A DNA stretch of 64,000 nt, from positions 1 to 64,000 of the IMG/VR virus record IMGVR_UViG_3300028392_001993. The stretch is one strand, 5' to 3'. Positions 7,728 to 62,556 of this stretch are shown piece after piece. This DNA is from a virus. Position 1 is the stretch's first letter; each line of letters begins with the position of its first letter. Below the pieces are notes generated by a model. The model was not told the origin of the DNA. It saw nothing but the letters and a program-made list of their open reading frames with translations, and made no database searches. Both the position numbers and the translations under genes were made by a program.

Positions 7728-10700
7728 ATGATAGTAGACCAATTATTCACACCCAAGCCTCTCAAAGAAGGTGGCCCATATGACTTGCCAGGCAAGGACT
7801 ATGACCGTCCTGGTGATACTCCGCGCAAAGCACCCGCTAGCGATGAACACAATCCCTATCCTTTCAGTCCGGAAGAGGATGATGATTACTTCCGTGAAAT
7901 CTTCCGCAAGAAGCGTGAAGCGGCCGCTAAAGATCAAGGTGTGGCGGAAGATTATCGTGACAGCCCAAGGGCCGGAATAGATCCAGACTTTGATTCCTTG
8001 CTTCTTCGCAGAGATGCTAGGCGCAAGGGCATGACTGTGGCTCAATATAAACATTATCTAGCAACACAGGATCAAGACAGAGAATATGAATTGACCATTG
8101 GCCCAGCGGCTCGCGCAGAATTAAAACGTCAAGCAGATGAGATTGCAGAATTAAAACGTCAGCAGTTGCGACAAGAACGTTTAGAAGATGAAGCCGCGGC
8201 ACATCAACGTTATACAGAAAAAGCCGAACGTGAGATGGAAATGGAAAAGATCCGCAAGGCTTACCAACATGAACTTAATGTAATCAATAACAAACATACA
8301 AATAGTTTACAGACATTAAATGCAGAAAACTCACACGACATACGTAAGTTATCAATACAACAACAACACGAGTTGACTATGCTAAAAGCAAATCAACCCG
8401 AACGTCCTACACGCCCACAAAGACCCGGTCGCCCACAGCGACCCACTGCAGAACCCGAAGATGACTTTGAACCAGAACCTGAGATCAGTGTTAAACCAGC
8501 ACCAATGACGTCTAATAAACCCTCTATTGGTAATGCAAATTTTGATAGTGAAACCGGAAAACCATTAAAACCACAACAATGGCACACCAGCCAACAATTA
8601 CCATATAAAAAACCCCCAGCACTGGGTTATAAAAATGATGATGATGTAACTGATATTGAACCAAAAAAGTTAGGTGAAACTGGTATTGATCGTGCAGTCA
8701 ATGACAAAGGTCTTACTCAACAACGATGGCTACAGTTAGTTCAAACTAAATTTCCAGACGCTAAAATTGTTTGTGCAAAAATGATTGACGGACCATGTCG
8801 TGCCACGTTGCCCGATGGTAAAACACTGTCTTGGGTCAAAGTAGACCAAGGTACTGATGGCAACAACAATAGCACAGGCGGTGTCAAGCCTGTTGGGACA
8901 GGCAAGTATAAGGCTTTACAAACAGGCATAGATCAGCGCAAAGCGGCCAGAGATAAGATGCAAGCATATGTTGCAACCCTTCCAACTTATACTAGAAAAG
9001 GCATGTCTGAAAGCAAACGCAACAAACAACGCCGACTAAACGAAGCCCTGCTCATGGAAGATCCTGTCTATCGCAGATTCAAGCGTGTGGGTCGTTATAT
9101 CGCGGAACAAAAATTAACTGAACCAGAAATCTTACAAATCTTCTCCGACGCCGAAGCAGGCATGACTGACAAGGCCACAGGCGCCAACCGCACTTTTGCA
9201 GGCCGTGGTAAAGATGCCACTGTGGACTTTGCCAAAGATGTAGCCGGTGCTGTTAAAGGCGTTCTCAACAGCATACAAAATTCAGTTCCTGTGGCCGCAG
9301 TTGACACGGCGTACGATCAGGCCACTGATGCTTTAGGCGACTTGGCTGGTGGACAAAAAGGTGCTGTGATGGATGCGATCAAGAAGTATCGCAATCTTGT
9401 GAAACAATATCCCAAGACAGCAGGCTTTGCCAAGGCTGCATTGGTAGCTATCGCTGGTCTTGCCACAGGCGGTGCTGGTTTGCCTGCTATTGCTGGATTA
9501 ACATACGCATTGGACTCAGCCATCAAAGGCGACAAGTTATCCAGTGTTATTGGTAAAGGTGCCGGAGCGGCCGCATTGGCGGCCGCTGGTCAAGCCATAC
9601 ACGGTGGAGCCACACAAACAGGACCTGCTGATACAAATGCATTTACCAATGTGAATCAAATGGGCGACCACACAGGCGAATACGTTGACATGCCGGACGG
9701 TTCCGATATAGTAAGTCCATTGGTAGCACCACCACCTGAACTTGCTACATATACTGTGCAATCGGGTGATACCTTGAGTCAAATTGCCCAGGCCAACAAT
9801 ACCACAGTACAAGAACTGGTTGGACTTAATCCACAACTGGCCGCCGCAAGCGGTGCCATAGGCGGACAAGGACTTAATCCTGATGTCATATTCCCTGGAC
9901 AACAAATCACATTGCCACCAGCAACACCCGGTGCAGATGTCTATGCTGGGGCAGTTGGTACCAATGCCAACACCATGGCTGATATTGCTCGTGGTCAAGT
10001 GCCCAACAGCGCAATCACACAAGGTATGGCTGCTAGAAATGCAGTAAGAGAATCCATCAAGTATCGTGCAAGAATTTTACATGCTGACAAACTAATCGAT
10101 CAAAAGGCTACAGTGCTGAACTGGGCCTTGAGCGAAAGCGTTGGTCGTAAGAGCAAGAGTGTTAACTTGACTACCTTAGGCACTTACACAGTATTTGAAA
10201 ACATCGACCGTTATCGCCGAGCAATTCTTGAAGCAACACAACCTGGTCGTCCTGAACTGCCAGATCAATATCGTCCAGACTTGCCAGGCGGCGCAGGAGT
10301 GCAATCACAGCCTGGTATGATTGGTCGTGGACTCAATTGGCTAGATAACAAAGCCAAAGCAGTAGGTGGAGCACTCAGCAACTTTGGACACCAATTTACT
10401 ACCAATGTCACAAAAGAAAAACTCAAGATGAACTGGCATCAAGCTGGCAAACCCAGTGATTCAGATCAATTGGCCGCCTGGTTGGTTGGTCAAGGTGTGC
10501 CGCAACAGGTTGTGACCAGTGTGTTTGGCAAGATGGGTATTCCATACACAGCGCCTACTACAGTACAACCAGCAGGTCAATCAGATGAACCAACCGCTAC
10601 TTCTACTGCCACAAGACAAATGCCATGGTACGGAAAAGATGCAAATGGTAAAGTACGTGATTCTGAATCATTACGTGCCCGCGGCAATGCTGAACTAGTT

Positions 10701-26975: not shown

Positions 26976-28958
26976 ATGACATACAAAATTGCCTGGGTCC
27001 AGCCCAACTTCCAACAAGGACCTAAAGAGTTCAATGCTCACTATTTGCCATACTCAGCTGGCGTAATATGGAGTTATGCCTTAACTGATCCTTGGGTTAA
27101 AGAAAACTTTGAATGCACAGACATGGTCTGGCGTAGAGATGCTGTGGAACCCCTGGCACAAAAACTTGCCGCCAACGATGTGGTTACATTTAGTACCTAT
27201 GTATGGAACCACCAATACAACTATACTCTAGCACGTATGGTCAAACAATTGAATCCCAACTGCTTGATCATCTTTGGTGGTCCTGAACCTGCTATTACAG
27301 ATCCAGATATCTTTGTCAAAGAACCTTACATGGATCTTGTGATTTGCTTTGAGGGAGAGATTACATTCCGTAATGTAATGCGAGCTTTTGAGTCGCGCAA
27401 CTTTGATGAGATTCCCGGACTGTTGGTCAACAAGAACGGTACAGCACTAAACACCGGCGATGCCAAGCGTATCGAAGCACTTGGAGAAATTCCTAGTCCA
27501 TACTTGAGTGGGGTGTTTGACAAGATTGTGGCAGAGAATCCTGGCATAGAGTGGAACGGCACACTAGAAACCAATCGTGGTTGTCCGTTTGCTTGTACCT
27601 TCTGTGACTGGGGTAGTTTGACCTATAACAAGGTCAAGCACTTTGATGTACAAAGAGTTTATGATGAACTGGAATGGATGGCAAAGCACCGGTGTGGGTT
27701 TATCAGTATTACTGATGCAAACTTTGGTATGTTCCCCGAACGTGATAATCTCATCGCCGATAAAATTATCGAAGTACAGAGCAAGTATGGATATCCAAAA
27801 ACGTTTAGCGTGGCCTGGGCAAAAAACCAAAAGAAAGAGGTTGTGGACATTGTCAAGAAACTTTTGGATGCCCCAGGTTTCAATCAAGGACTTACCTTAT
27901 CTGTGCAGAGTCTCGACGTGGACGTCTTGGAAAATATCCGCAGAAAAAACATGGAAATGAACAAGTTGGAAGAAGTGTTTGAACTGTGTGAACAGCGCAA
28001 CATTCCAACCTACACAGAACTTATTCTTGGCTTGCCTGGCGAAAGTTTAAAGACCTGGAAGGACAACTTCTGGAAACTGTTCCGTATGGGCAACCACACA
28101 GGCCTTACTGTGTTCCAAGCGCAGTTGTTGGAAAATGCAGAGATGAATCTACTGCAAAAGAAACTGTTCAAGATTGGTTCGCAACGTGTGACTGATTACT
28201 TCTCTGGTTCCTACTCTAATGAACACATTGAAGAAGGTATTGATATTATTACTAGCACCAAAGACTTGCCTTTTGAAATCATGTTGGATGCTGAAATCTT
28301 CTCGTGGTACATCAACACTTTTCACATCAATGGTGTGAGCACTTTGTTGAGTCGCTTGGTCTACAAGTATCTTGACATAGACTACAGTGTATTCTACGAA
28401 GACTTGTTTGAGTTTCTACAGCACGACGAATGGTTTGTAAAAGAACAAACAGAGGTGCGCCAGTATTTCAGTAACTGGATGACACAAGGTCAAATTCGTC
28501 ATCCCAACATTGGCGGCATTGAGATTCATGGTTGGAACTTGATTCACCGCAGTATCTTGAACATGCACGTGGAACATCAATATGAAAACATCTTTGCCAA
28601 ACTTGAAGCGTTTATGAGCCGATACAATTTGCCCAAGGAATTGTTAGACAATGTGATGAAGTTTCAAAAGAAATATCTCATTGCATACGATGATGTTGCC
28701 CAGTATCCACAGAAACTAGAACTAGATTACAACATCTGGGAATATTTGACATTTGATCAACCATTGCAACAAGGTGCAGTGATATATAATTTAGACTTTC
28801 CCGAAGACAAGACCATGAGCTTTCCACGATTCCTGGAACTGTTCTATTTTGCAAGACGTAGAAACTTTGGCAAAGCCACAGTAGATACCATAGATGGCAG
28901 TACCAACAACAGTGCCCGAAGAGGCGAAGCCGCTGTGCAAGCAATGGCTATAATATAA
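26976..28958 (+). CDS. B12-binding-type radical SAM protein (660 aa)
   Basis: An N-terminal Rossmann-like domain (residues ~1-160, with I-I-F-G-G-P-E-P-A) has the layout of a cobalamin-binding domain, though a D-x-H-x-x-G is not obvious. The radical SAM core follows with G-C-P-F-A-C-T-F-C-D-W-G (C-x3-C-x2-C) near residue 202 and a T-E-L-I-L-G-L-P-G-E strand. The ~250-residue C-terminal extension is unassigned. Such enzymes do methylations or ring rearrangements on unreactive carbons. GTTAAATA lies four bases before the ATG inside the end of the previous gene. Confidence 0.85.
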   Translation: MTYKIAWVQPNFQQGPKEFNAHYLPYSAGVIWSYALTDPWVKENFECTDMVWRRDAVEPLAQKLAANDVVTFSTYVWNHQYNYTLARMVKQLNPNCLIIFGGPEPAITDPDIFVKEPYMDLVICFEGEITFRNVMRAFESRNFDEIPGLLVNKNGTALNTGDAKRIEALGEIPSPYLSGVFDKIVAENPGIEWNGTLETNRGCPFACTFCDWGSLTYNKVKHFDVQRVYDELEWMAKHRCGFISITDANFGMFPERDNLIADKIIEVQSKYGYPKTFSVAWAKNQKKEVVDIVKKLLDAPGFNQGLTLSVQSLDVDVLENIRRKNMEMNKLEEVFELCEQRNIPTYTELILGLPGESLKTWKDNFWKLFRMGNHTGLTVFQAQLLENAEMNLLQKKLFKIGSQRVTDYFSGSYSNEHIEEGIDIITSTKDLPFEIMLDAEIFSWYINTFHINGVSTLLSRLVYKYLDIDYSVFYEDLFEFLQHDEWFVKEQTEVRQYFSNWMTQGQIRHPNIGGIEIHGWNLIHRSILNMHVEHQYENIFAKLEAFMSRYNLPKELLDNVMKFQKKYLIAYDDVAQYPQKLELDYNIWEYLTFDQPLQQGAVIYNLDFPEDKTMSFPRFLELFYFARRRNFGKATVDTIDGSTNNSARRGEAAVQAMAII

Positions 28959-37172: not shown

Positions 37173-37436
37173 ATGAGTTGGAACAGTTTTATTGCACAAG
37201 TAGCCGAAGATCAAGCAAACGCACTAGTATTTGGCCACAGTCGCCGCATTACCGGTGCCGGGCAAGCCGCTTATATACGCTACGGCAAGGGCCCACGTGC
37301 ATTGTATAATGCATTAGACAAAGCCCTGCCTGCCGCTATAGACCGTGCAAAAGCCAGAAAAAATGCAAGTCACATTGCCGAATTGGAACGTGCTGGTTTT
37401 ACAGTAACTAAAAACACAGAAACACAAGGAGCCTAA
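37173..37436 (+). CDS. Small hypothetical protein (87 aa)
   Basis: First gene of a sigma-70-like transcription unit. MSWNSFIAQVAEDQANALVF, then R-Y-G-K-G-P-R-A-L-Y-N-A-L-D-K-A-L and A-K-A-R-K-N-A-S-H-I: helical and basic, with a helix-turn-helix-like middle. Early-type position and basic character suggest DNA or RNA binding; unproven. Confidence 0.55.
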   Translation: MSWNSFIAQVAEDQANALVFGHSRRITGAGQAAYIRYGKGPRALYNALDKALPAAIDRAKARKNASHIAELERAGFTVTKNTETQGA

Positions 37437-37437
37437 A

Positions 37438-37785
37438 ATGACAGTAACAGTAAACGGTGTCAAAGTAGACACAATCGTAGCCGAAGCCAAGTCAGCCGCT
37501 CGTGAAGCCGCTGAACGTTTCTTCCAAGAAAAACTAAACGGTCGAGATCAGTTTGCCTGTGGCTTTGCCTGGGTTGACATCTTTGGTGTCAAGGGCAATA
37601 CCAAACTGGGTCGTGCTCTCAAAGAAGCAGGCGTGAGCAAGAGTCACACAGGTGCTTTCCAAATTTGGAATCCAGCCAATATGTACGTGCAAAACGTAGA
37701 CACCCTGGAAGCAGGTGCCCAAGCGGCGGCTGATGTGTTTAAGAAATACGGCTTCTCTGCCTACGCTGGTAGCCGTTTAGACTAA
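37438..37785 (+). CDS. Hypothetical protein (115 aa)
   Basis: AAGGAG Shine-Dalgarno overlapping the previous stop. Features: A-K-S-A-A-R-E-A-A-E-R-F-F helix, F-A-C-G-F-A-W-V-D-I-F-G-V-K-G-N-T-K-L-G, and F-Q-I-W-N-P-A-N-M-Y-V-Q with a C-terminal A-A-A-D-V-F-K-K-Y-G. A well-packed alpha/beta domain of unknown family, of a type seen among small early genes of large phages. Confidence 0.6.
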   Translation: MTVTVNGVKVDTIVAEAKSAAREAAERFFQEKLNGRDQFACGFAWVDIFGVKGNTKLGRALKEAGVSKSHTGAFQIWNPANMYVQNVDTLEAGAQAAADVFKKYGFSAYAGSRLD

Positions 37786-39480: not shown

Positions 39481-39557
39481 GCCTTGGTAGCTCAGTTGGT
39501 CAGAGCAGGCGACTCATAATCGCTTGGTCGGGGGTTCAAGTCCCTCCCAAGGCACCA
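39481..39557 (+). tRNA. tRNA-Ile2 (CAT anticodon)
   Basis: Seven-base acceptor stem GCCTTGG/CCAAGGC, encoded CCA, loop CTCATAA. The whole anticodon arm and variable region (GGCGACTCATAATCGCTTGG) is the one of bacterial tRNA-Ile2, which needs lysidine at C34 to read AUA, so I call Ile rather than elongator Met. Confidence 0.85.
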
Positions 39558-43753: not shown

Positions 43754-43921
43754 TAGAGCATAAGTAGAATCAGCAACGCCGATACAGTATCGACGTCGGA
43801 AACATATTGACGCCTGGGGTAGCGAAACCCTTTTACTGGTGTGTTACACATAGAACGCCGATCTCCGTAGCAGATTCTCTGCAAGCTCTTAAACTTATTG
43901 ACACTAACTTTAGGAGAAATC
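43754..43921 (+). other. 168-nt intergenic leader with hairpins
   Basis: No gene seen. CGATA-CAG-TATCG (about 43781-43793) and GGGT...ACCC followed by TTTT (43817-43834) could fold; the latter is a weak terminator candidate. A good TTTAGGAGA Shine-Dalgarno ends the leader before the Bug receptor. Confidence 0.4.
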
Positions 43922-44836
43922 ATGTCAAAAATTCTAGCAACCTTGTTGGCTGCCATTGCCATCACCGCGGCTCAGGCTCGCGAAAACATCACAATCTTGT
44001 ATGCTTACAGCGCAGGTGATTCAGTAGCCAACTACCATCGAACCATTGCCAACGAAGCAAACAAGATCCAAGACCGATATAACTTTGTATTTGATGCCAA
44101 ACCCGGGGCCGGAGGTGCTATTGCATCCAACCAGGCACTGGGCACACCAAATACTATCTTGGCACACTCAACTGCGTTCTTTGTTCGTCCAGTTGTGTTT
44201 CCCAACGAAAGTTACGACATTGCTCGATTCCGGCAACAATACGTTCACTGTATGGCGCCCATGGCAGTGACCAGCAGTCGATATCGATCGCTGAAAGATG
44301 TTCCTACCACGGCTACCGTGGGTATCAGTGGCTTGGGAGTTACCACACACCTGGCTGCAATTGAACTCAAGAAAAAGTTTCCTGACCTGAACATTATCCC
44401 ATTCAAATCAACCACAGACTCAATGTTGAGCATGGTGGGTGGGCAAACTGACTTGCACATTGGTTTTATATCAGAAGCAGAGCAATGGAGCCGGGATAAT
44501 ACCAGCAGTGATCGCAAGGTCTCTGTGTTGGGTATTACTGGCAACAAAACAGTCAACGGTTATACTCCCCTGGCAAAACTGGGTCTTGATCCCAGTTTCG
44601 CTGACATGAATGTGGGGCATCACATGGTGCTTCCTGTCACAATTGATGATGCAAAACGCAAAGAGTTTTATGAAATTTTTGCCAAGGCCTCTCGAACAGA
44701 TGCAGTACGTGCGGCCTATGCTGTGGACTATTGCGAACCACAATCAGTCAAGTACGAAGACTTAAACAAGTTTTTTGTGTTTCATACTGAGTACTGGCGC
44801 AAATTGGCCAGTCAAGTTAAACTAGACAACAAGTAA
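43922..44836 (+). CDS. Bug/TctC-family periplasmic binding protein, copy 1 (304 aa)
   Basis: Signal peptide M-S-K-I-L-A-T-L-L-A-A-I-A-I-T-A-A-Q-A with a plausible cut after A-Q-A. Mature part has the family layout: F-D-A-K-P-G-A-G-G-A-I-A-S-N (the P-G-G/A-x-G ligand loop), T-A-T-V-G-I-S-G-L-G, L-S-M-V-G-G-Q-T-D-L and P-L-A-K-L-G-L. Bug proteins bind carboxylates in the periplasm of proteobacteria. A phage copy is unusual; two PP-loop genes are immediately upstream. Role during infection is unknown. Confidence 0.83.
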   Translation: MSKILATLLAAIAITAAQARENITILYAYSAGDSVANYHRTIANEANKIQDRYNFVFDAKPGAGGAIASNQALGTPNTILAHSTAFFVRPVVFPNESYDIARFRQQYVHCMAPMAVTSSRYRSLKDVPTTATVGISGLGVTTHLAAIELKKKFPDLNIIPFKSTTDSMLSMVGGQTDLHIGFISEAEQWSRDNTSSDRKVSVLGITGNKTVNGYTPLAKLGLDPSFADMNVGHHMVLPVTIDDAKRKEFYEIFAKASRTDAVRAAYAVDYCEPQSVKYEDLNKFFVFHTEYWRKLASQVKLDNK

Positions 44837-45070: not shown

Positions 45071-45099
45071 TTGACATCAAATCAATTTTGTGGTATAAT
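45071..45099 (+). promoter_or_regulatory. Perfect consensus promoter of the tmRNA
   Basis: TTGACA (45071-45076), 17 bases, TATAAT (45094-45099); expected +1 near 45106. Confidence 0.8.
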
Positions 45100-45105
45100 A
45101 AATAC

Positions 45106-45466
45106 TTGAACAGCGTAAACTGTTACTGAGAAAAGGATTCAAGACCCGGGGGCAGTGCCCGGCAGGTCCACCATAAGCATACTTAAATCTCTACAAAACC
45201 GAAAGGTTGGGATCAGGGCTGGTACACCGGATTACTCTAGGGAAACCTATAAGTGCGGATAGACCATAGTATGCTTTTGATGGGCCTGACACAGGATCGA
45301 TTGGGTCAAGAGTACAAGTAATGGCGCTCGGTAGGCGATGACCGTTAATCAAGCAAAACAAGTATCTGCAAACGATGATACATACCTCTTAGCCGCAAAC
45401 GCCTAAGAGCGAGGCAGTTATGCCTTGTAACCAAAAATAGCAATAGGGACTTCGGTCCCTATTTTT
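45106..45466 (+). ncRNA. ssrA: Circularly permuted two-piece tmRNA
   Basis: The acceptor piece comes first: CCGGGGGCAGTGCCCGG (T-arm with a non-standard loop), CAGGTCC, A, CCA (45171-45173). A 108-nt intervening segment follows, closed by AAGCATACT/AGTATGCTT. The coding piece begins GGGCCTG at 45282. GGGCCTG pairs with CAGGTCC in all seven positions with G3-U70, the alanine identity pair. GGGTC (coding) pairs with GACCC (acceptor) and AGTAA with TTACT as helix P2. The tag frame 45368-45406 reads ANDDTYLLAANA and stop. The T-arm loop resembles alphaproteobacterial permuted tmRNAs (from memory). tmRNA rescues stalled ribosomes. Confidence 0.88.
45442..45466 (+). terminator. Rho-independent terminator of the tmRNA
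   Basis: AATAGGGAC, TTCG loop, GTCCCTATT and a T-run; nine base pairs. Confidence 0.88.
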
Positions 45467-46079
45467 ATGGGTATTGCCAAGTCCAGGAGCCATCTTGCTT
45501 ATAAAGTCGTGTTCTTCCTTTAACTTTAGCAGATAGTTTAGAGGCACCTTTTCTGCCATTTTCTGCCGCAGTTGGATTAGGCAATCCTTTATTCCACGGA
45601 GTCGCACCTTTATTTCTGGATACAGACGATGTATAATTTGAACCATTAAATTTTGCGGCACAGGATTGACTACACCAAGCCTTTTCTCTAATCGGGTGAT
45701 GACAAAACTCTATCTTACCAAATAAGTTAGAACATTGAATGCAGGTGTATTGTCGTGTCTCTTTTGGTCTAGTTTTAGTGCGTTTATTTTGAGCAGATAA
45801 CAATTTTGAATGCTCTATCCTTGCCTTCTCGTAATGTCTGTTCGAATACTTCTTTAATCTGCCCATTAGATTTACAGCATGCCATAATGTTCCGCCGTGT
45901 ATCTTCGCTAATAATATATGGGCTATATAATGCTCACGAGCAGTTAGATCAACCAAGTTAGAAGGTTCGTTAGTTCCTCCTAAACACTTTGGAATAATAT
46001 GGTGTTCTTCTTTGTAGCCAGTAGTAGTTCTAAGTTTGGCTCTTTCTATCAGCGATGTATAATGGTTTAAATAATTCAT
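45465..46079 (-). CDS. HNH homing-type endonuclease with zinc ribbon (204 aa)
   Basis: HNH core near the N-terminus: Y-K-E-E-H-H-I-I-P-K-C-L-G-G-T-N-E-P-S-N-L-V-D-L. Then a zinc ribbon: Y-T-C-I-Q-C-S-N-L-F and W-C-S-Q-S-C-A-A-K-F-N, and a Lys/Gly-rich C-terminal repeat (R-N-K-G-A-T-P-W-N-K-G) of NUMOD type. The C-S-Q-S-C-A-A module is shared with the HNH at 58634. CATAAATA five bases before the ATG predicts a leaderless late message. It lies tail to tail with the tmRNA. Confidence 0.85.
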   Translation of the reverse strand: MNYLNHYTSLIERAKLRTTTGYKEEHHIIPKCLGGTNEPSNLVDLTAREHYIAHILLAKIHGGTLWHAVNLMGRLKKYSNRHYEKARIEHSKLLSAQNKRTKTRPKETRQYTCIQCSNLFGKIEFCHHPIREKAWCSQSCAAKFNGSNYTSSVSRNKGATPWNKGLPNPTAAENGRKGASKLSAKVKGRTRLYKQDGSWTWQYP

Positions 46080-46130
46080 AACTTTATTTATGCTTTCGTA
46101 GCCTAATATACCTCGTAACAGAAACCACCA

Positions 46131-46152
46131 AACCCGCTTCGGCGGGTTTTTT
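46131..46152 (+). terminator. Rho-independent terminator
   Basis: AACCCGC, TTCG, GCGGGTT and six Ts. There is no plus-strand gene just upstream, so it may stop read-through antisense to the HNH gene. Confidence 0.8.
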
Positions 46153-46158
46153 AATTTG

Positions 46159-57055: not shown

Positions 57056-57132
57056 GGCTCCGTAGTTCAGTCCGGCAGAACGTTGGTCTCCAAAACCAAA
57101 TGTCAGAGGTTCAAATCCTTTCGGGGTCGCCA
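57056..57132 (+). tRNA. tRNA-Trp (CCA)
   Basis: Acceptor GGCTCCG/CGGGGTC with two wobble pairs, loop CTCCAAA, T-loop TTCAAAT, discriminator G, encoded CCA. Confidence 0.92.
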
Positions 57133-57152
57133 ATGTTTATAAGTATGCTATC

Positions 57153-58187
57153 GTGCTAAAACTTAATTATTGTGAATTTTACATAACCAATGTATGCAAT
57201 TTGAACTGCTCGCGTTGCAATAGATTTAACAACTATGCGTTCTCCGGACATTATAAATGGAACGAGTATGCTGAGGTATACAAAAGTTGGTCAGAAAAAC
57301 TAGATGTTGGCAGAATTGGCATCTTGGGCGGTGAGCCTATGCTCAATCCCGAATTTGATGTATGGGTTGAAGAAATTGCTAAACTTTGGCCCAGGGCCTC
57401 CATATTGATTATAACCAATGGAACTCAATTTCACCGTTGGCCTATGTTGTATAAGTTGCTAGAAAAATATCAAGGCAGAGTCAGAATTGATATTAATCGC
57501 CATGATATAAATGCTGAGGCGGAAGTAGTTCGCAATGTTGAACAATTTTTTCCCGGAGATTACAAAAAGTTTTATGTCAATGACGGGTATTACACACAAG
57601 GCCCTGACCATGTTAAGCATTTTAATTTTGCAGATAACGGAATAAAATATGAGGTTTGGGAAGACCAAACATACAAACTTGCATGGAGAGATCACAATCA
57701 GATCTTTGTTAGATATGGTCTTGCAAATACATTTAGTAAGATACCAATAGAACGTTATGATGATCGAGTTAAATTAGTTTATTGGAGTGATCCAACCGCC
57801 GCTATATCTATTTGCGGTGGCAAAGAATCTCATCATTTTCTCAATGGTAAACTTTACAAATGTAATGTCTCTGCAATATTACCAAATTTTATCAAGCAAT
57901 TTGATGTTGCTATGACAGATCAACAAAAAGAGTTAATTGAATCTTATGAACCAGCAGAAATAACATGGAACAATGATAAATTAACAGAATTTGTTGAAGG
58001 GTTACGGCAGACTCGATGTATCGAGCAGTGTCGGTTATGTCCAGATGTGCTAGATGCAAAAGAGTTTCAAGCAGGTATTAAAAAGGTACATATAAAAAAA
58101 ATACAGAATTTGGAGAGTGAGAAGCATTGGCGACTTCAGGAGACTGTAAATCTTCCACCTTACGGTATACGGGGTTCGAATCCCTGA
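57153..58187 (+). CDS. Radical SAM protein whose 3' end runs into tRNA-Tyr (344 aa)
   Basis: GTG start after TATAAGTA. C-N-L-N-C-S-R-C (C-x3-C-x2-C) at about residues 14-21, I-L-G-G-E-P-M-L, and late C-R-L-C-P cluster-type Cys. Paralogue of the protein at 4024. The last ~25 codons are inside tRNA-Tyr in the sense direction, so the C-terminus (E-S-E-K-H-W-R-L-Q-E) is encoded by tRNA sequence; RNase P cutting would remove it from the message. Substrate unknown. Confidence 0.85.
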   Translation: MLKLNYCEFYITNVCNLNCSRCNRFNNYAFSGHYKWNEYAEVYKSWSEKLDVGRIGILGGEPMLNPEFDVWVEEIAKLWPRASILIITNGTQFHRWPMLYKLLEKYQGRVRIDINRHDINAEAEVVRNVEQFFPGDYKKFYVNDGYYTQGPDHVKHFNFADNGIKYEVWEDQTYKLAWRDHNQIFVRYGLANTFSKIPIERYDDRVKLVYWSDPTAAISICGGKESHHFLNGKLYKCNVSAILPNFIKQFDVAMTDQQKELIESYEPAEITWNNDKLTEFVEGLRQTRCIEQCRLCPDVLDAKEFQAGIKKVHIKKIQNLESEKHWRLQETVNLPPYGIRGSNP

Positions 58188-58197
58188 CTCTCCACCA
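58112..58197 (+). tRNA. tRNA-Tyr (GTA)
   Basis: Acceptor GGAGAGT/ACTCTCC, loop CTGTAAA, long variable arm, T-loop TTCGAAT, encoded CCA. Overlaps the end of the radical SAM gene in the same direction. Confidence 0.92.
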
Positions 58198-58205
58198 AAT
58201 AGTTG

Positions 58206-58234
58206 TTGACACAACCGCACGTTAACTATATAAT
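58206..58234 (+). promoter_or_regulatory. Perfect consensus promoter of tRNA-Ser
   Basis: TTGACA (58206-58211), 17 bases, TATAAT (58229-58234); +1 about two bases before the tRNA. Confidence 0.8.
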
Positions 58235-58242
58235 ACTATAAT

Positions 58243-58332
58243 GGAGACGTGGCCGAGTGGCCGATGGCACCGGATTACTAACCCGGCGAGGTAGCAATAC
58301 CTCCGTGAGTTCGAATCTCACCGTCTCCGCCA
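58243..58332 (+). tRNA. tRNA-Ser with ACT anticodon
   Basis: Class II: acceptor GGAGACG/CGTCTCC, discriminator G, long variable arm GAGGTA/TACCTC, encoded CCA. The loop reads TTACTAA, giving ACT, where bacteria use GCT for AGY codons; A31-C39 at the stem end is mispaired. Confidence 0.82.
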
Positions 58333-58337
58333 AAAAT

Positions 58338-58574
58338 ATGACACTGACATTAAACGATTTGAAAGCGAATGACCAGGCTGTGATAGCCAGCGTCACTAAC
58401 GAACGACTACAACAAATGGGCATTGTGCCCACTAGGGTTGTGACTGTATTGAGACGCAAGCCTGGTTGTCTTCACATACGTGTGGGTAGCACTGAGTGGG
58501 CCATACGTGATCAAGACGCTCGGTCAGTAAAAATTATTCCACGGGAGCCGCCGGGTGTGGCAGCAGACTGTTAA
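58338..58574 (+). CDS. FeoA-like domain protein (78 aa)
   Basis: Starts five bases after the tRNA-Ser CCA. L-N-D-L-K-A-N-D-Q-A-V-I-A-S-V, L-Q-Q-M-G-I-V-P-T-R-V-V-T-V-L and W-A-I-R-D-Q-D-A-R-S-V-K-I-I follow the FeoA SH3-like layout. FeoA assists the ferrous transporter FeoB. The last 12 codons lie in tRNA-Asn. Small FeoA-like domains also occur as regulators. Confidence 0.78.
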   Translation: MTLTLNDLKANDQAVIASVTNERLQQMGIVPTRVVTVLRRKPGCLHIRVGSTEWAIRDQDARSVKIIPREPPGVAADC

Positions 58575-58618
58575 TCTGTGCGAAAGCAAGCTAGGTTCGA
58601 GCCCTAGCCGTGGAGCCA
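58538..58618 (+). tRNA. tRNA-Asn (GTT)
   Basis: Acceptor TCCACGG/CCGTGGA, discriminator G, loop CTGTTAA, T-loop TTCGAGC, encoded CCA. The variable region is enlarged to ~11 nt with a GC-GAAA-GC mini-hairpin. Confidence 0.88.
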
Positions 58619-58633
58619 ATCATAAATAACTAT

Positions 58634-59239
58634 ATGTATAAATGTATAGAATGTGATAAATCGTTTAATAGTATTATGGCATTGACTGGACATAAACGAA
58701 TGCACGGTCAATCCAATGGTAAATCTAAAAAAATATTTTGCTCTTGTTTGATTACTCGCATAGCAATGCCATATCAATATTTGGCAGAGTATCAAGCAAA
58801 ATTGATTGGGTGTAAACAATGTAATAAACTGTTTAAACCAGATAGCAACAAAAAAACTTTTTGTTCTCAATCCTGTGCCGCAACATATAATAATACTGTT
58901 TACGTAAAACGCCTGAAAAAAGAAAAGCCACCAAAGATCATTCGAGAGAAAAAAGTTTACACAGAAACTGAGAAAAAATCTAAAAACGTTTCGGCAGTTC
59001 AAGCATATCGTGCTAGAAAATACAGTGCAACATTACCAGACACAGATCGCAAACTTATCAACAAGATTTACGAAATGTGCCCAAACGGATACGAAGTAGA
59101 TCATATTATTGCATTAAGCGAAGGTGGGCCTCATCATCAAGACAATTTGCAATACCTTCCTGCTATGGAAAATAGACGAAAGAATAGAACGCAAAATTAC
59201 AATAGAAGCCTTGCTATCAATTGGCAAGATATGTTATAA
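58634..59239 (+). CDS. HNH endonuclease with C2H2 finger and zinc ribbon (201 aa)
   Basis: N-terminal C2H2 zinc finger (Y-K-C-I-E-C-D-K-S-F, then L-T-G-H-K-R-M-H), a zinc ribbon (G-C-K-Q-C-N-K-L-F, F-C-S-Q-S-C-A-A) and a C-terminal HNH (Y-E-V-D-H-I-I-A-L-S-E-G-G-P-H-H-Q-D-N-L-Q-Y-L). ATG 58634 follows CATAAATA by five bases, as for the HNH at 46079. The finger probably adds DNA recognition. Homing-type endonuclease inserted next to tRNAs. Confidence 0.85.
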   Translation: MYKCIECDKSFNSIMALTGHKRMHGQSNGKSKKIFCSCLITRIAMPYQYLAEYQAKLIGCKQCNKLFKPDSNKKTFCSQSCAATYNNTVYVKRLKKEKPPKIIREKKVYTETEKKSKNVSAVQAYRARKYSATLPDTDRKLINKIYEMCPNGYEVDHIIALSEGGPHHQDNLQYLPAMENRRKNRTQNYNRSLAINWQDML

Positions 59240-59252
59240 TAAGAAAAAATTT

Positions 59253-59328
59253 GCCCTTATAGCTCAGTTGGTAGAGCAACGGTTTTGTAAACCGTAGGTC
59301 CCGTGTTCGAGTCATGGTGGGGGCACCA
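59253..59328 (+). tRNA. tRNA-Thr (TGT)
   Basis: Acceptor GCCCTTA/TGGGGGC with two wobble pairs, loop TTTGTAA, T-loop TTCGAGT, encoded CCA. TATAAT at 59235 overlapping the HNH stop may be its promoter. Confidence 0.9.
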
Positions 59329-59339
59329 AAGGAAATGTA

Positions 59340-59606
59340 ATGGCTAAACTACTGATAGTTACCTGGATCCCAGGCAAAGACGAATCTAAGAATCAAAAGT
59401 CAGAAACAGCAAGAAATATCAAACTAGGTATGATGTGTGTTAAGGGCAAAGTAAATCCTTTTGATTTTAAAGTAACAGACAAATTTACCACACAACGACG
59501 TTGGCGGGATCAAGAATCAGTAGACGAGTACATCAAATTTCTCTACGAATTAGAAACAAGATATGGTGGCCGGTTGGTCAAAATTCAAGTCAAAGATGTT
59601 GACTAA
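59340..59606 (+). CDS. Hypothetical protein (88 aa)
   Basis: Starts 11 bases after the tRNA-Thr CCA with AAGGAAA. MAKLLIVTWIPGKDESKNQK, then R-N-I-K-L-G-M-M-C-V-K-G-K-V, F-T-T-Q-R-R-W-R-D and a helical V-D-E-Y-I-K-F-L-Y-E-L-E. Family unknown. Confidence 0.55.
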   Translation: MAKLLIVTWIPGKDESKNQKSETARNIKLGMMCVKGKVNPFDFKVTDKFTTQRRWRDQESVDEYIKFLYELETRYGGRLVKIQVKDVD

Positions 59607-59627
59607 ACTGTGCAATCACAGTATAAT
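59599..59627 (+). promoter_or_regulatory. Sigma-70-like promoter of tRNA-Gly
   Basis: TTGACT (59599-59604), 17 bases, TATAAT (59622-59627); -35 overlaps the previous stop. Confidence 0.72.
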
Positions 59628-59635
59628 AAAAATAT

Positions 59636-59709
59636 GCGGAGTTGGCATATTGGTTGTGTCCCAGCCTTCCAAGCTGGTTAAACGAGTTCGATTCTCGTAC
59701 TCCGCTCCA
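59636..59709 (+). tRNA. tRNA-Gly (TCC)
   Basis: Acceptor GCGGAGT/ACTCCGC, loop CTTCCAA, T-loop TTCGATT, encoded CCA. Confidence 0.93.
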
Positions 59710-59719
59710 AAGGAACATT

Positions 59720-60079
59720 ATGGATTATTGGGGAAATCATCTTATATTAGATTGCAGTGGTTGTGATCCTGATCGAATCCGTGATCCTGTACTGTTAGAT
59801 CGCTGGATCAGAGCACTTGTGATTGACATAGACATGAAGGCACACGGCGAACCTATCATAACTTACAATGGCGAAGAGCCTTATCACTCAGGCTATACTG
59901 TGGTGCAAGTTATTACTACTTCCAGCATTGTGGCTCACTTTATTGACAACCCGGCTAGTTGTTATCTGGATGTGTTTAGTTGTAAACCATTTGACATAGA
60001 AAAAGTCAAGTCAAGTATGAGAATCACGTTCGGTGCTGAACGTATGCGACAGTATTATATCACGCGACAAGCGGATTAA
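59720..60079 (+). CDS. speD: S-adenosylmethionine decarboxylase-like protein (119 aa)
   Basis: ATG 59720 after AAAGGAAC, ten bases from the tRNA-Gly CCA. L-I-L-D-C-S-G-C, then G-Y-T-V-V-Q-V-I-T-T-S-S-I-V-A-H with the Ser that would become the pyruvoyl group, and L-D-V-F-S-C-K-P-F-D. These are the SpeD/AdoMetDC landmarks in the ~120-residue prokaryotic size. Makes decarboxylated SAM for spermidine synthesis; polyamines help pack phage DNA. Cleavage site Ser is inferred by alignment pattern. Confidence 0.82.
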   Translation: MDYWGNHLILDCSGCDPDRIRDPVLLDRWIRALVIDIDMKAHGEPIITYNGEEPYHSGYTVVQVITTSSIVAHFIDNPASCYLDVFSCKPFDIEKVKSSMRITFGAERMRQYYITRQAD

Positions 60080-60088
60080 GGAAAACAT

Positions 60089-60313
60089 ATGGACATGGAT
60101 CAAGCGGCTGTATTCTTAGCCGGCTCAATTTTGACAGCACTGGGCTTTATAGCCGTGGTGATTGGTCTTGTGGTGATTAATAATATCATTGCTCGATACT
60201 GGAAACCTGTTAGAATCTTTACCGAAGACAGTTGGCATGGTTTCAGCAGTTCAGCAAGATTTGCCGAGCCACAAGAAATTGAAAAAACACAAGAACCCAC
60301 ATTGAAGAAATAA
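60089..60313 (+). CDS. Small membrane protein (74 aa)
   Basis: One transmembrane segment at about residues 6-33 (V-F-L-A-G-S-I-L-T-A-L-G-F-I-A-V-V-I), then a cytoplasmic-type tail R-Y-W-K-P-V-R-I-F-T-E-D-S-W. AAGGAAA Shine-Dalgarno. Follows speD. Function unknown. Confidence 0.6.
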   Translation: MDMDQAAVFLAGSILTALGFIAVVIGLVVINNIIARYWKPVRIFTEDSWHGFSSSARFAEPQEIEKTQEPTLKK

Positions 60314-60314
60314 C

Positions 60315-60563
60315 ATGTGGAGTTATATCATAACTTTCTTTGCAGTATTTGCAACTGATTTGATTTACGTTTACTTTGTAAAGTCAATTCAAGACAATCG
60401 TCCACTCATGGCTGCATGGTGGTCGATGGCAGTGACATTCACAGCCAGTGTGGCAGTTATCAACTACACAGAAGATCACTGGGCCCTGATTCCAGCACTG
60501 GCGGGTGCCTACTGTGGCACATTGTTTGGCATGTGGATCAAAAGAAAAATCAACGGAGTATAG
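60315..60563 (+). CDS. Small membrane protein (82 aa)
   Basis: Three hydrophobic segments (I-I-T-F-F-A-V-F-A-T, A-A-W-W-S-M-A-V-T-F-T-A-S, L-I-P-A-L-A-G-A-Y-C-G-T) and a basic end (K-R-K-I-N-G-V). Its last codons overlap tRNA-Pro. Function unknown. Confidence 0.6.
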   Translation: MWSYIITFFAVFATDLIYVYFVKSIQDNRPLMAAWWSMAVTFTASVAVINYTEDHWALIPALAGAYCGTLFGMWIKRKINGV

Positions 60564-60630
60564 CACAGCCTGGTAGTGCGCCTGGTTTGGGACCAGGAGG
60601 TCGTAGGTTCGATCCCTGCTACTCCGACCA
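60554..60630 (+). tRNA. tRNA-Pro (TGG)
   Basis: Acceptor CGGAGTA/TACTCCG, loop TTTGGGA, T-loop TTCGATC, encoded CCA. Confidence 0.92.
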
Positions 60631-60634
60631 ATAG

Positions 60635-60712
60635 GCAACGGTGGCAGAGAGGCCCAATGCATGGGATTGCAAATCCCAAAAGCCGCTGGTTCGAATCCAG
60701 CCCGTTGCTCCA
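60635..60712 (+). tRNA. tRNA-Cys (GCA)
   Basis: Acceptor GCAACGG/CCGTTGC, loop TTGCAAA, T-arm GCTGG-TTCGAAT-CCAGC, discriminator T, encoded CCA. Confidence 0.92.
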
Positions 60713-60717
60713 AACCA

Positions 60718-60809
60718 GGAAGATGATGCAGTGGCGTTGGTGCCGCGACTGGCCTTGAAAACCAGGTTCTCAGAAATGGGATGGGGTTCGACTCCTCCGT
60801 CTTCCGCCA
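60718..60809 (+). tRNA. tRNA-Ser (TGA)
   Basis: Class II: acceptor GGAAGAT/GTCTTCC, discriminator G, loop CTTGAAA, variable arm TCTCA/TGGGA, T-loop TTCGACT, encoded CCA. Confidence 0.9.
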
Positions 60810-60814
60810 AATAT

Positions 60815-60888
60815 GCCTCGTTCGTCTAATGGTAGGGCCGCGTCTTTACACGGCGCAGACGGCAGTTCGATTCTGTCACGAGGTACCA
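60815..60888 (+). tRNA. tRNA-Val (TAC)
   Basis: Acceptor GCCTCGT/ACGAGGT (G1-U72), anticodon stem GCGTC/GGCGC around TTTACAC, T-loop TTCGATT, encoded CCA. Confidence 0.88.
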
Positions 60889-60889
60889 A

Positions 60890-61123
60890 TTATGCCTCTT
60901 TAGCTGATGTGGTCATAGCACCGGACTGAAAATCCGGGGAACCAGGGTCGGAACCTGGAGGAGGCACCACAAACGTAGTATCAAGTTGAAATTCTTTCTT
61001 GGGATTGATCAGCATGGCATTGAGTGTAAACTCGCGTGTGACTGTAGAATAGAATCGTTGTTGGTAAACACCTTGTGCCGCTTGGTACAAGGATAGCATA
61101 GCGTCATCAGCAGTTGTAATCAT
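60890..61123 (-). CDS. Small hypothetical protein antisense to tRNA-Phe (77 aa)
   Basis: ATG 61123 is five bases after an exact TATAAATA on the minus strand (an earlier in-frame ATG at 61129 overlaps the box itself). M-I-T-T-A-D-D-A-M-L-S-L-Y-Q-A-A-Q, then V-T-R-E-F-T-L-N-A-M-L-I-N-P-K-K. The last ~26 codons are the complement of tRNA-Phe, which gives a Pro/Ser-rich tail. Small gene made credible by the promoter; function unknown. Confidence 0.5.
   Translation of the reverse strand: MITTADDAMLSLYQAAQGVYQQRFYSTVTREFTLNAMLINPKKEFQLDTTFVVPPPGSDPGSPDFQSGAMTTSAKEA
60894..60969 (+). tRNA. tRNA-Phe (GAA)
   Basis: Acceptor GCCTCTT/AGGAGGC, loop CTGAAAA, encoded CCA. The T-loop is GTCGGAA rather than TTCGANN. 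The end of a minus-strand gene runs antisense through it. Confidence 0.9.
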
Positions 61124-61128
61124 AAGCA

Positions 61129-61136
61129 TATTTATA
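61129..61136 (-). promoter_or_regulatory. T4-late-type promoter element TATAAATA
   Basis: Exact TATAAATA on the minus strand; +1 would be the ATG at 61123. It abuts tRNA-Ile on the other strand. Confidence 0.55.
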
Positions 61137-61211
61137 GCCTCCGTAGCTCAGTGGTAGAGCACGATCTTGATAAGGTCGGGGTCGGTGGATCGTTCCCACC
61201 CGGCGGCACCA
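61137..61211 (+). tRNA. tRNA-Ile (GAT)
   Basis: Acceptor GCCTCCG/CGGCGGC with a T4-C69 mismatch, loop TTGATAA, T-arm GGTGG-ATCGTTC-CCACC, encoded CCA. T-loop positions 54 and 58 are A and T, swapped from the standard T and A. Confidence 0.88.
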
Positions 61212-61263
61212 ATTTTTTAAAAGGAGATCTGTCATGACAAGTGACAAGAGTGATAAGATTAGT

Positions 61264-61337
61264 GGGGGTGAAACTTTAAGGTGAAGTAACTGGCTTTTAA
61301 CCAGTAAAACTCGGATCGTTCCCGAGCACCCCTACCA
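61264..61337 (+). tRNA. tRNA-Lys (TTT)
   Basis: Acceptor GGGGGTG/CACCCCT (G1-U72), loop CTTTTAA, T-arm CTCGG-ATCGTTC-CCGAG with the same swapped T-loop, encoded CCA. Confidence 0.9.
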
Positions 61338-61377
61338 TATAAAAACACATTTGACAACCAGGGTGTTTTTATATGGT
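61334..61377 (+). repeat. 15-bp inverted repeat linking tRNA-Lys and tRNA-His
   Basis: ACCATATAAAAACAC (61334-61348) and GTGTTTTTATATGGT (61363-61377), perfect, 14-base loop. The left arm includes the Lys CCA and the right arm the first bases of tRNA-His. A likely processing hairpin; a similar ACCATA...TATATGGT stem follows tRNA-Glu. Confidence 0.8.
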
Positions 61378-61451
61378 GCGTGTCGTCAAGTGGTTAAGAC
61401 CTCGGATTGTGATTCCGATACACGTGGGTTCGAATCCCATCATGCACCCCA
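61375..61451 (+). tRNA. tRNA-His (GTG)
   Basis: Acceptor GTGCGTG/CATGCAC, extra 5' G (61375) opposite discriminator C, loop TTGTGAT, T-loop TTCGAAT, encoded CCA. Confidence 0.92.
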
Positions 61452-61460
61452 AGTTTTTGT

Positions 61461-61534
61461 TCGGGAATAGTGTAATGGTAACACTACAGACTTTGACTCT
61501 GTCATTCTAGGTTCGACCCCTAGTTCCCGTGCCA
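61461..61534 (+). tRNA. tRNA-Gln (TTG)
   Basis: Acceptor TCGGGAA/TTCCCGT with a weak first pair as usual for Gln, loop CTTTGAC, T-loop TTCGACC, discriminator G, encoded CCA. Confidence 0.9.
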
Positions 61535-61541
61535 GTATTCA

Positions 61542-61618
61542 GCCCCGATGACGGAATTGGTATACGTGTTGGTCTTAGAAGCCAAATTTTGCGAGTTCGA
61601 GTCTCGCTTGGGGCACCA
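61542..61618 (+). tRNA. tRNA-Leu (TAG) without long variable arm
   Basis: Acceptor GCCCCGA/TTGGGGC, loop CTTAGAA, T-arm GCGAG-TTCGAGT-CTCGC, Leu-like D-arm, encoded CCA. Between anticodon and T stems there are only five bases (ATTTT), although bacterial tRNA-Leu is normally class II. Confidence 0.85.
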
Positions 61619-61632
61619 TTAATAAAACTGTA

Positions 61633-62130
61633 ATGTCTACAGAGTTAAATAAAAGGCAAATGATGAAAAAACTAGACATTGACCAAGTGGCAGCGTTTAT
61701 CCGTGGCCAAACTCCCGAAACTCGAATCTATCTTGGTTGTGATAGTGAACGTGTGAAAGTTGACGGTAAATGGTATGCTGATTACATTCTTGCTATTGTA
61801 GTCCACATCAACGGCAACAACGGTTGCAAACTGTTTGGTGAAGTACAACGTGAACGCGACTGGGATCAACGGGCATCACGGCCAGCGTTGCGATTAATGA
61901 CCGAAGTTTACAAAGTAAGTGAATTATACTTGAAACTTGAAGAAGTGCTAGACGGTCGTGAGGTTGAAGTCCATCTTGATATTAACCCAGACGAGATGTA
62001 TGGCTCAAGTTGTGTGATCAGCCAAGCCGTTGGTTACATCAAAGGTGTATGCAATGTTATACCTTTTGTCAAGCCAGAAGCGTTTGCGGCTAGTTATGCC
62101 GCAGATAGATTCAAGAGTCTAGCGGCATAA
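61633..62130 (+). CDS. RNase H-like fold, DUF458/YkuK-type protein (165 aa)
   Basis: Begins 14 bases after the tRNA-Leu CCA. R-I-Y-L-G-C-D-S-E-R-V, W-Y-A-D-Y-I-L-A-I-V-V-H-I, an E-V-H-L-D-I-N-P strand and S-Q-A-V-G-Y-I-K-G follow the DUF458 pattern, an RNase H-like fold with acidic residues at the start of strands 1 and 4. Such proteins are common in large phages; nuclease activity is not established. Confidence 0.78.
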   Translation: MSTELNKRQMMKKLDIDQVAAFIRGQTPETRIYLGCDSERVKVDGKWYADYILAIVVHINGNNGCKLFGEVQRERDWDQRASRPALRLMTEVYKVSELYLKLEEVLDGREVEVHLDINPDEMYGSSCVISQAVGYIKGVCNVIPFVKPEAFAASYAADRFKSLAA

Positions 62131-62136
62131 GTTAAT

Positions 62137-62211
62137 GCAGGATTAATTCAGTGGTAGAATGTCTCGTTGCCAACGAGAATGTCATCGGTTCGAACCCGAT
62201 ATCCTGCTCCA
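62137..62211 (+). tRNA. tRNA-Gly (GCC)
   Basis: Acceptor GCAGGAT/ATCCTGC, loop TTGCCAA, T-loop TTCGAAC, encoded CCA. Confidence 0.93.
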
Positions 62212-62216
62212 AGTTT

Positions 62217-62397
62217 AAAGAAAGTGTGTTAGAAACAGATCGACTATCGGCCCAACTACTAGGGATCTAGTTAATCCAGCGCCGCTGAACGGGCGAGAGC
62301 CGCGGTAGACTGCTAGTCACAGTCGTGTCATGTTGCTGGAGGGAAGGGAGTGCAGTCTTGTATTCCGAACCCTTAAACATCAGGTAGTACTTTCTTT
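62217..62397 (+). ncRNA. Structured RNA segment between tRNA-Gly and tRNA-Thr
   Basis: ORF-free. Closed by AAAGAAAGT (62217-62225) with ACTTTCTTT (62389-62397); inside, AACTA/TAGTT near 62263 and AGACTGC (62307-62313) with GCAGTCT (62352-62358). Nested pairing of this kind suggests a folded RNA of ~180 nt, similar in style to the 47-48 kb region. No family recognised. Confidence 0.5.
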
Positions 62398-62404
62398 ATT
62401 TCAT

Positions 62405-62478
62405 GCTCCTATAGTATAAAGGTATTACACGGCATTGGTAATGCCGAAACGGAGGATCGTTACCCCCTAGGAGCACCA
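62405..62478 (+). tRNA. tRNA-Thr (GGT)
   Basis: Acceptor GCTCCTA/TAGGAGC, loop TTGGTAA, encoded CCA. T-arm GGAGG-ATCGTTA-CCCCC has one A-C mismatch and the swapped 54/58 bases. Confidence 0.87.
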
Positions 62479-62481
62479 GTT

Positions 62482-62556
62482 CGGCCTTTAGTTCAACGGA
62501 TAGAATACGTGGCTTCGAACCATGTGATGGGAGTTCGATTCTCTCAGGGTCGGCCA
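62482..62556 (+). tRNA. tRNA-Arg (TCG)
   Basis: Acceptor CGGCCTT/AGGGTCG with wobble pairs, loop CTTCGAA, T-loop TTCGATT, discriminator G, encoded CCA. Overlaps antisense the end of the radical SAM gene. Confidence 0.9.

Follow-up and report, generated by a model that had tools for sequence, protein, structure and literature searches.

A permuted phage tmRNA gene with a tag ending in Ala-Asn-Ala and a candidate RNA family in its intervening segment

The tmRNA locus and its surroundings

The window, a stretch of 64,000 nucleotides, comes from an IMG/VR virus contig of 178,197 bp (IMGVR_UViG_3300028392_001993) and carries a two-piece tmRNA gene (Table 1). An initial annotation, made from the letters alone, had placed the acceptor piece ahead of the coding piece, joined by an acceptor stem with a G3-U70 pair and separated by 108 nt; coordinates and folding agree with this description. 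The acceptor stem GGGCCUG/CAGGUCC has seven pairs including G3-U70, and unconstrained co-folding of both pieces recovers this stem, the T-arm and the stop-codon hairpin. A resume codon region and a short tag frame with a stop codon are present, as in permuted tmRNAs. The consensus promoter claimed in the annotation is borne out by a complete sigma-70 match, and its position suggests that transcription would start near the 5' end of the acceptor piece. The claimed terminator stands in part: the hairpin is followed by TTTAT on its plus-strand side by eye, whereas the terminator scan calls a terminator on the minus strand only. A second permuted tmRNA was not found in the record.

Between positions 39481 and 62556 of the window, ARAGORN finds 23 tRNA genes, which share a strand and lie chiefly within 57056-62556. 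Just 5' of the tmRNA gene, 43898-44836 gives a weak match to a TctC-like tricarboxylate receptor (25.5 bits, below the cut-off of 27), and 26976-28958 encodes a radical SAM and B12-binding protein, here in a phage. The 204-aa product of the convergent homing endonuclease gene has no Pfam match.

Table 1. Features at and around the permuted tmRNA gene (window positions).
Feature	Position	Strand	Basis or remark
Sigma-70 promoter TTGACA-17-TATAAT	45071-45099	+	12/12 consensus positions; extended -10 (TG before -10)
Acceptor piece of two-piece tmRNA, closing in encoded CCA	45106-45173	+	exact 5' end inferred
T-arm CCGGG-GGCAGUG-CCCGG, resembling the alpha_tmRNA consensus	45146-45162	+	covariance model alignment
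Acceptor stem 3' strand, partner of 45282-45288, G3-U70 retained	45163-45169	+	model and folding
Intervening segment, 108 nt, inferred to be missing in mature tmRNA	45174-45281	+	sequence reading
Structured RNA element (model R1), 9-bp closing stem 45176-45184/45268-45276	45176-45276	+	covariance model
tmRNA coding piece, 3' end approximate	45282-45430	+	Rfam models, folding
Module boundary within mosaic gene	45324-45351	+	sequence comparison
Tag frame ANDDTYLLAANA (45368-45403), stop codon TAA (45404-45406)	45368-45406	+	sequence reading
Hairpin CUCUUAG..CUAAGAG enclosing last tag codons and stop codon	45386-45409	+	folding
Terminator-like hairpin between convergent tmRNA and endonuclease genes	45442-45463	+	terminator scan: minus strand only
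Homing endonuclease gene, 204 aa, convergent with tmRNA	45465-46079	-	phrog_655, E 2.2e-45

Family membership and proposed working of the gene

A covariance search had been named as the check on the two-piece reading, with a match to a one-piece model as the counter-evidence. In this search the permuted model RF04321 (tmRNA_permuted) matches 45112-45406 on the plus strand with 108.1 bits (gathering score 47, E 3.8e-20). The alpha_tmRNA model (RF01849) also passes, with 85.1 bits against a cut-off of 50, and beta_tmRNA (RF01850) lies slightly below its cut-off of 84 with 81.2 bits. The one-piece model RF00023 has no match to the locus at its gathering score. Related genes are numerous: RF04321 matches 14 of 22 viral records retrieved by a tag-start pattern that is blind to the tag end, and 10 of 19 further viral records retrieved by a pattern requiring the ending -ANA. 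Covariance models and the many viral relatives both back the reading as a two-piece phage tmRNA. A similarity search with the locus in 50,697 phage records gave no match.

ARAGORN calls no tmRNA at the locus despite the RF04321 match, and 13 of the 14 tag-start relatives score higher (121 to 149 bits) than the window gene with its 108.1 bits. Both observations might point to a decaying copy without function. However, promoter, acceptor stem, T-arm, tag frame and stop codon are all complete, and the tag peptide is unchanged despite synonymous codon changes (see below); we consider decay very improbable.

By analogy with the known family, a single transcript would arise from the gene's own sigma-70 promoter, and host tRNA-processing enzymes would cut it at two sites, 3' of the CCA (45173) and 5' of position 45282. 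Acceptor and coding pieces would remain paired, receive alanine and act together with host SmpB on stalled ribosomes. No SmpB gene was found in the 178,197-bp record, hence a host SmpB partner has to be assumed. A working two-piece tmRNA that passes through transcription, processing, charging and rescue is, with good confidence, the likely product of this locus.

The phage and its nearest known systems

The DNA polymerase (phrog_262) is nearest to that of the Sinorhizobium jumbo phage Phosso (51%), followed by Agrobacterium phage Atu_ph07 and other jumbo phages including 121Q, whose record labels its polymerase gene T4 gp43-like. The gene belongs to a T4-like and probably jumbo phage, and the record, which is shorter than those phages, may be a fragment. 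Permuted tmRNAs occur in four of eight isolate phages searched. Phosso (PV764938.1) is among them; its tag is ANDNVSTKVALAA and its intervening segment is longer and different. The tags of Phosso, DLP_6 and Mendera all end in Ala-Ala. Xanthomonas phage XacN1 (AP018399.1) has equal-scoring permuted tmRNAs at 37231-37530 and 356026-356325, the first with no annotated feature around it; the two copies are possibly terminal repeats.

A phage-encoded, permuted tmRNA is in itself not new, as excerpts of two reports show (PMC9004378, PMC11915505). The gene order, acceptor stem, T-arm, resume codon and tag frame of the window gene are those of the RF04321 family, for which the latter report is the source as far as its excerpt tells (PMC11915505). 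The window gene differs from this family in that its tag gains Asn-Ala after an ordinary tag and its intervening segment holds a structured RNA. Of 133 unique phage tmRNAs, 53 were reported to have a two-piece structure in the excerpted account that describes the Methylophilales phage Melnitz, whose tmRNA gene is assigned a glnA riboswitch in its 3' domain (PMC9004378). The Melnitz tmRNA is phage-encoded and permuted like that of the window and belongs to a different phage; tag endings and RNAs of the R1 type are not mentioned in that excerpt. Earlier phage tmRNAs are catalogued in PMC4131195, likewise seen as an excerpt.

The ending -ANA is a recurrent viral variant

The window tag ends in -ANA, and the usual (non-defining) hydrophobic-Ala-Ala ending is absent. 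This ending, flagged as odd in the initial annotation, is real and recurs in other viral tmRNAs. Two of the 14 tag-start relatives carry it, L034 with ANDELFLMMANA and L037 with ANDDTYLLAANA. A second blind pattern, which combined the acceptor end with the coding start at a distance of 85 to 115 nt and ignored the tag, gave at least 119 loci (L167-L285). Among the matches listed, a tag could be read in 94 of 119, with the endings LAA (77), MAA (8), MVA (3), IAA (3), VAA (1), LVA (1) and ANA (1). LAA, MAA, IAA or VAA thus close 89 of these 94 listed tags, and a polar next-to-last residue other than that of -ANA was seen in none of them. Over both samples not selected by ending, -ANA amounts to 3 of 108 tags, the larger sample again covering the matches listed.

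The pattern requiring -ANA retrieved 21 viral stretches, nine of which are -ANA tmRNAs (L002, L010 and seven of the ten RF04321-positive records). Eight distinct viral -ANA tags are known from these searches: ANDDTYLLAANA, ANDELFLMMANA, ANDANFKVAANA, ANDAQFLVAANA, ANDSTYALRANA, ANDSHFLQAANA, ANDSTYLIAANA and ANDSQYLVAANA. All eight are 12 residues long where the pattern permitted 11 to 17, and six consist of a usual [LVIQ]AA-ended 10-mer followed by Asn-Ala. Because some of the eight were picked for -ANA, their common ending is no evidence by itself; their common length and the two blind samples are. The ending is therefore a recurrent viral variant and no private oddity of the window. The tag ANDDTYLLAANA is common to the window and L063, and the two genes differ there in four codons. 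Since all four differences are synonymous, the tag peptide is under selection in at least this lineage. A literature search at the level of titles and abstracts found no account of -ANA tags or of genes nested in permuted tmRNAs.

When applied to 84,980 genomes of bacteria and archaea, the -ANA pattern matched 42 stretches. ARAGORN calls a tmRNA in three of them, one of which, L091, has an -ANA tag. In the same run ARAGORN misses 6 of 25 viral loci, hence its silence is no proof for the other 39; by eye, the sequence preceding the remaining in-frame -ANA matches is unlike tmRNA. As a yardstick, of 369 genomes from a single class, 49 contain the equivalent Ala-Ala-ended pattern. Read whole (L303), the contig of L091 has bacterial-looking genes and then a one-piece ssrA gene at 9803-10152 with the tag ADEDYALAA. 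Within L303:9803-10456, the 3' end of the one-piece ssrA doubles as acceptor piece of a permuted tmRNA with the tag ANDDTYLLAANA, and an endonuclease relative and, by eye, phage-like genes lie downstream. The arrangement would reflect integration of an element at ssrA, or else an assembly that was joined across the acceptor sequence common to both genes; under either reading the -ANA half would be viral.

A structured RNA element in the intervening segment

The annotation had described the intervening segment as closed by a 9-bp repeat. The repeat exists, but the segment is more than a spacer and comprises a structured RNA with relatives elsewhere. The closing stem is free in sequence; next come a hairpin whose base is AUC/GAU, the strand CAGGGCUGGUACACC of 15 nt, a third hairpin and the motif AUAGACC. 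A strict core pattern matched 12 viral stretches. A 16-letter core pattern matched 51, many of which are by eye chance matches in protein-coding sequence. Requiring the core and a closing stem of at least six pairs left 27 distinct copies, 18 of which were used to build the covariance model R1. Among the at least 119 tag-blind loci, R1 adds copies in L197, L218 and L279, with an altered core that was not fixed by the patterns, which brings the number of distinct copies to 30. The L279 copy sits in a permuted tmRNA according to Rfam, and those of L197 and L218 in an intervening segment by position. The window itself scores 93.0 bits with R1, its own row having been part of the model.

Seven of the 27 copies lie in tmRNA intervening segments (window, L070, L072, L074, L075, L147, L152), six immediately 5' of an acceptor piece (L002, L076, L077, L136, L139, L146), seven near tRNA genes (L067, L068, L073, L131, L132, L151, L157) and seven in other contexts; part of these assignments is based on flanking letters at sites where ARAGORN is silent. 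The 178,197-bp record has a single copy.

The 18 aligned rows have a covariation score of 0.404 (0.153 when shuffled). Their cells pair in 89.3% of cases, a figure that shuffling lowers to 72.7% and sliding to 31 to 39%, and 16 of 26 pairs have changes on both sides. For 31 model-fitted rows, which are biased toward the model and include the weak L162, 88.5% of cells pair and 20 of 21 pairs have changes on both sides. The helices with covariation support are the closing stem and the two hairpins. RNAalifold offers an alternative core pairing of AGGG with CUCU, some of whose bases were fixed by the search patterns.

Searched against 4227 Rfam models, the insert (45176-45276) has no separate match, and the copies in L131, L128 and L279 hit only the surrounding tmRNA models and one chance-level match. 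The insert alone gives weak 28-base matches to Arthrobacter phages among phage records (E 0.9) and no match among plasmids. R1 found nothing at E 0.01 in 369 bacterial genomes of one class (strict filters, no positive control), and a literature search on the core letters returned no related paper. Some candidates were set aside: six loci from a relaxed element pattern (L080 to L085) are chance by eye and are not matched by R1; L162 is a weak R1 match (E 0.005, 0.0028) that resembles an unrelated hairpin; and a hairpin upstream in phage Mendera looks alike by eye without an R1 match.

On these comparisons, the intervening segment is very likely an independent folded RNA cassette that belongs to a real RNA family. 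Whether it serves the tmRNA is a separate matter, as a selfish or passenger sequence could also settle there: the inserts of other tmRNAs are quite different, and the element is found outside tmRNAs too. Stem and core are nevertheless retained over diverse contexts with strong covariation, and its strand matches that of the adjacent tRNA or tmRNA gene in every case where such a gene is called, making a mere passenger quite unlikely. A role as self-cleaving RNA or processing signal is conceivable, though rather doubtful. Theta ribozymes that adjoin phage tRNAs are likewise small folded RNAs; as described in an excerpt of PMC10879173, they have an HDV-like fold with a nested double pseudoknot and cleave themselves, whereas the window element consists of a closing stem and two hairpins and has no Rfam match.

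Other cargo in viral intervening segments

A precedent for cargo is a tRNA-Ala inside the intervening sequence of one permuted tmRNA, reported as unique and, unlike the window, from a nominally archaeal MAG (excerpt of PMC11915505). ARAGORN finds no tRNA in the 92 distinct inserts among the matches listed for the tag-blind loci L167-L285. Of these listed inserts, which come from viruses other than that of the window, 38 contain a ribosome-binding-site-like motif and an ATG frame (at least 20 residues, ATG within the first 22 nt of the insert), compared to a mean of 0.6 and a maximum of 3 of 92 after dinucleotide shuffling. The micro-ORFs include a CxxC protein family (MKYTALCPxCF, nine members) and the membrane-like families MNDNL.. 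(seven) and MQKCRACD.. (five). In six families with countable synonymous change, pN/pS is 0.21 to 0.46; two pairs are without any. Two further inserts are of note: the 270-nt intervening segment of L063 has an 83-aa frame (MYRKGLFTGILISIAAYF...) between acceptor and coding pieces, and the 94-nt segment of L029 looks like a degenerate tRNA by eye, with no ARAGORN call.

A mosaic gene next to a homing endonuclease

The two halves of the window gene have different relatives. Positions 45129-45324 are 92% identical to L152 and 45130-45324 are 89% identical to L072, both of which bear the tag ANDSQFALAA. For 45351-45567, the match is to L037 (90% identity), a gene with another acceptor piece and another intervening segment. 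L169, with the tag ANDSQYLVAANA, aligns with 45351-46153 at 74%, endonuclease included. The sequence comparison shows that the tag-bearing 3' half was exchanged as a module. The adjacent homing endonuclease may have helped this exchange, a suggestion that we regard as possible but less than probable. As a general cause of -ANA the endonuclease was rejected: it suits only the window, L169, L303 and L037 (here as a remnant), and seven of the -ANA loci outside the window lineage have no such gene nearby (L057, L058, L062, L063/L065, L064, L066); L034 extends only 313 bases past the stop codon, which restricts the check there. At L169:651-759, the insert has window-like flanks (ACATACTTAAA...CATAGTATGT) around an inner RNA of another kind, which looks like a swap of the cassette.

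What the -ANA tag may do

tmRNA links ribosome rescue with protein destruction. The window tag can be read as an ordinary 10-aa degron, ANDDTYLLAA, extended by Asn-Ala, which would replace the free Ala-Ala end to which ClpX docks. According to an excerpt of PMC7652416, a change of either of the two final Ala residues in the ssrA tag increases the KM for ClpXP while Vmax is little affected, and the alpha-carboxylate is contacted. With Ala-Ala shifted inward and Asn next to last, docking by ClpX should weaken. Escape from ClpXP, which the initial annotation proposed alongside redirection, is plausible by this analogy, and the retained C-terminal Ala and AND..Y start would make adaptor-aided degradation possible. 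We tentatively suggest that the tag would still free proteins from the ribosome, while their degradation would be slowed or would depend on an adaptor, and give this just short of an even chance.

Two other explanations bear on the same residues. With a host adaptor, or by way of a different protease, the tag might still work well as a degron, leaving protein fate unchanged. This would fit the retained AND..Y part and an ADAS-ended tag that still binds SspB and is a substrate, if a less efficient one, of E. coli ClpXP (excerpt of PMC8512704). The raised KM for tags with a changed penultimate or last Ala (PMC7652416, as excerpted) argues against it, as does the lack of a clear bacterial -ANA tmRNA in the 84,980 genomes searched, and we regard it as unlikely, if a serious contender. 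Alternatively, -ANA might simply follow from RNA structure, if GCN AAY GCN are needed as the tip of the stop-codon hairpin and the peptide end is unimportant. Being within the hairpin, the last tag codons could be held by RNA structure alone. The window stem CUCUUAG/CUAAGAG is compensated in L063 as CUAUUAG/CUAAUAG, and the ANA codons fall in or near the hairpin loop in seven of eight folded -ANA sequences (the exception is L064). However, coding for Ala-Asn-Ala always yields such a loop, hence the recurrence of Asn-Ala is not explained by the hairpin, and the tags of window and L063 differ by the synonymous changes and nothing else. A purely structural origin is thus improbable.

Implications

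Taken as a whole, the locus is probably a working-looking permuted phage tmRNA with a lengthened tag, an RNA cassette and an exchanged 3' module. Genes of this kind are known; the tag variant recurs, and the RNA family inside is probably new. The recurrence of the -ANA tag, the structured insert and the mosaic gene go beyond the published phage two-piece tmRNAs. More speculatively, and on balance doubtfully, the intervening segment might be a general nesting site for independent genes that are co-transcribed and released (a folded, possibly self-cleaving RNA here, membrane- or zinc-finger-like micro-proteins elsewhere), while some tmRNAs would write a masked degron that separates rescue from proteolysis. 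Judging by the nested micro-ORFs, phages seem to place coding sequence in the portion of a non-coding gene that is discarded, and the insert of the window is a candidate RNA family adjoining phage tRNA and tmRNA genes. If the tag hides the destruction signal, this would be a natural uncoupling of the two functions and would help to ask why phages carry tmRNA.
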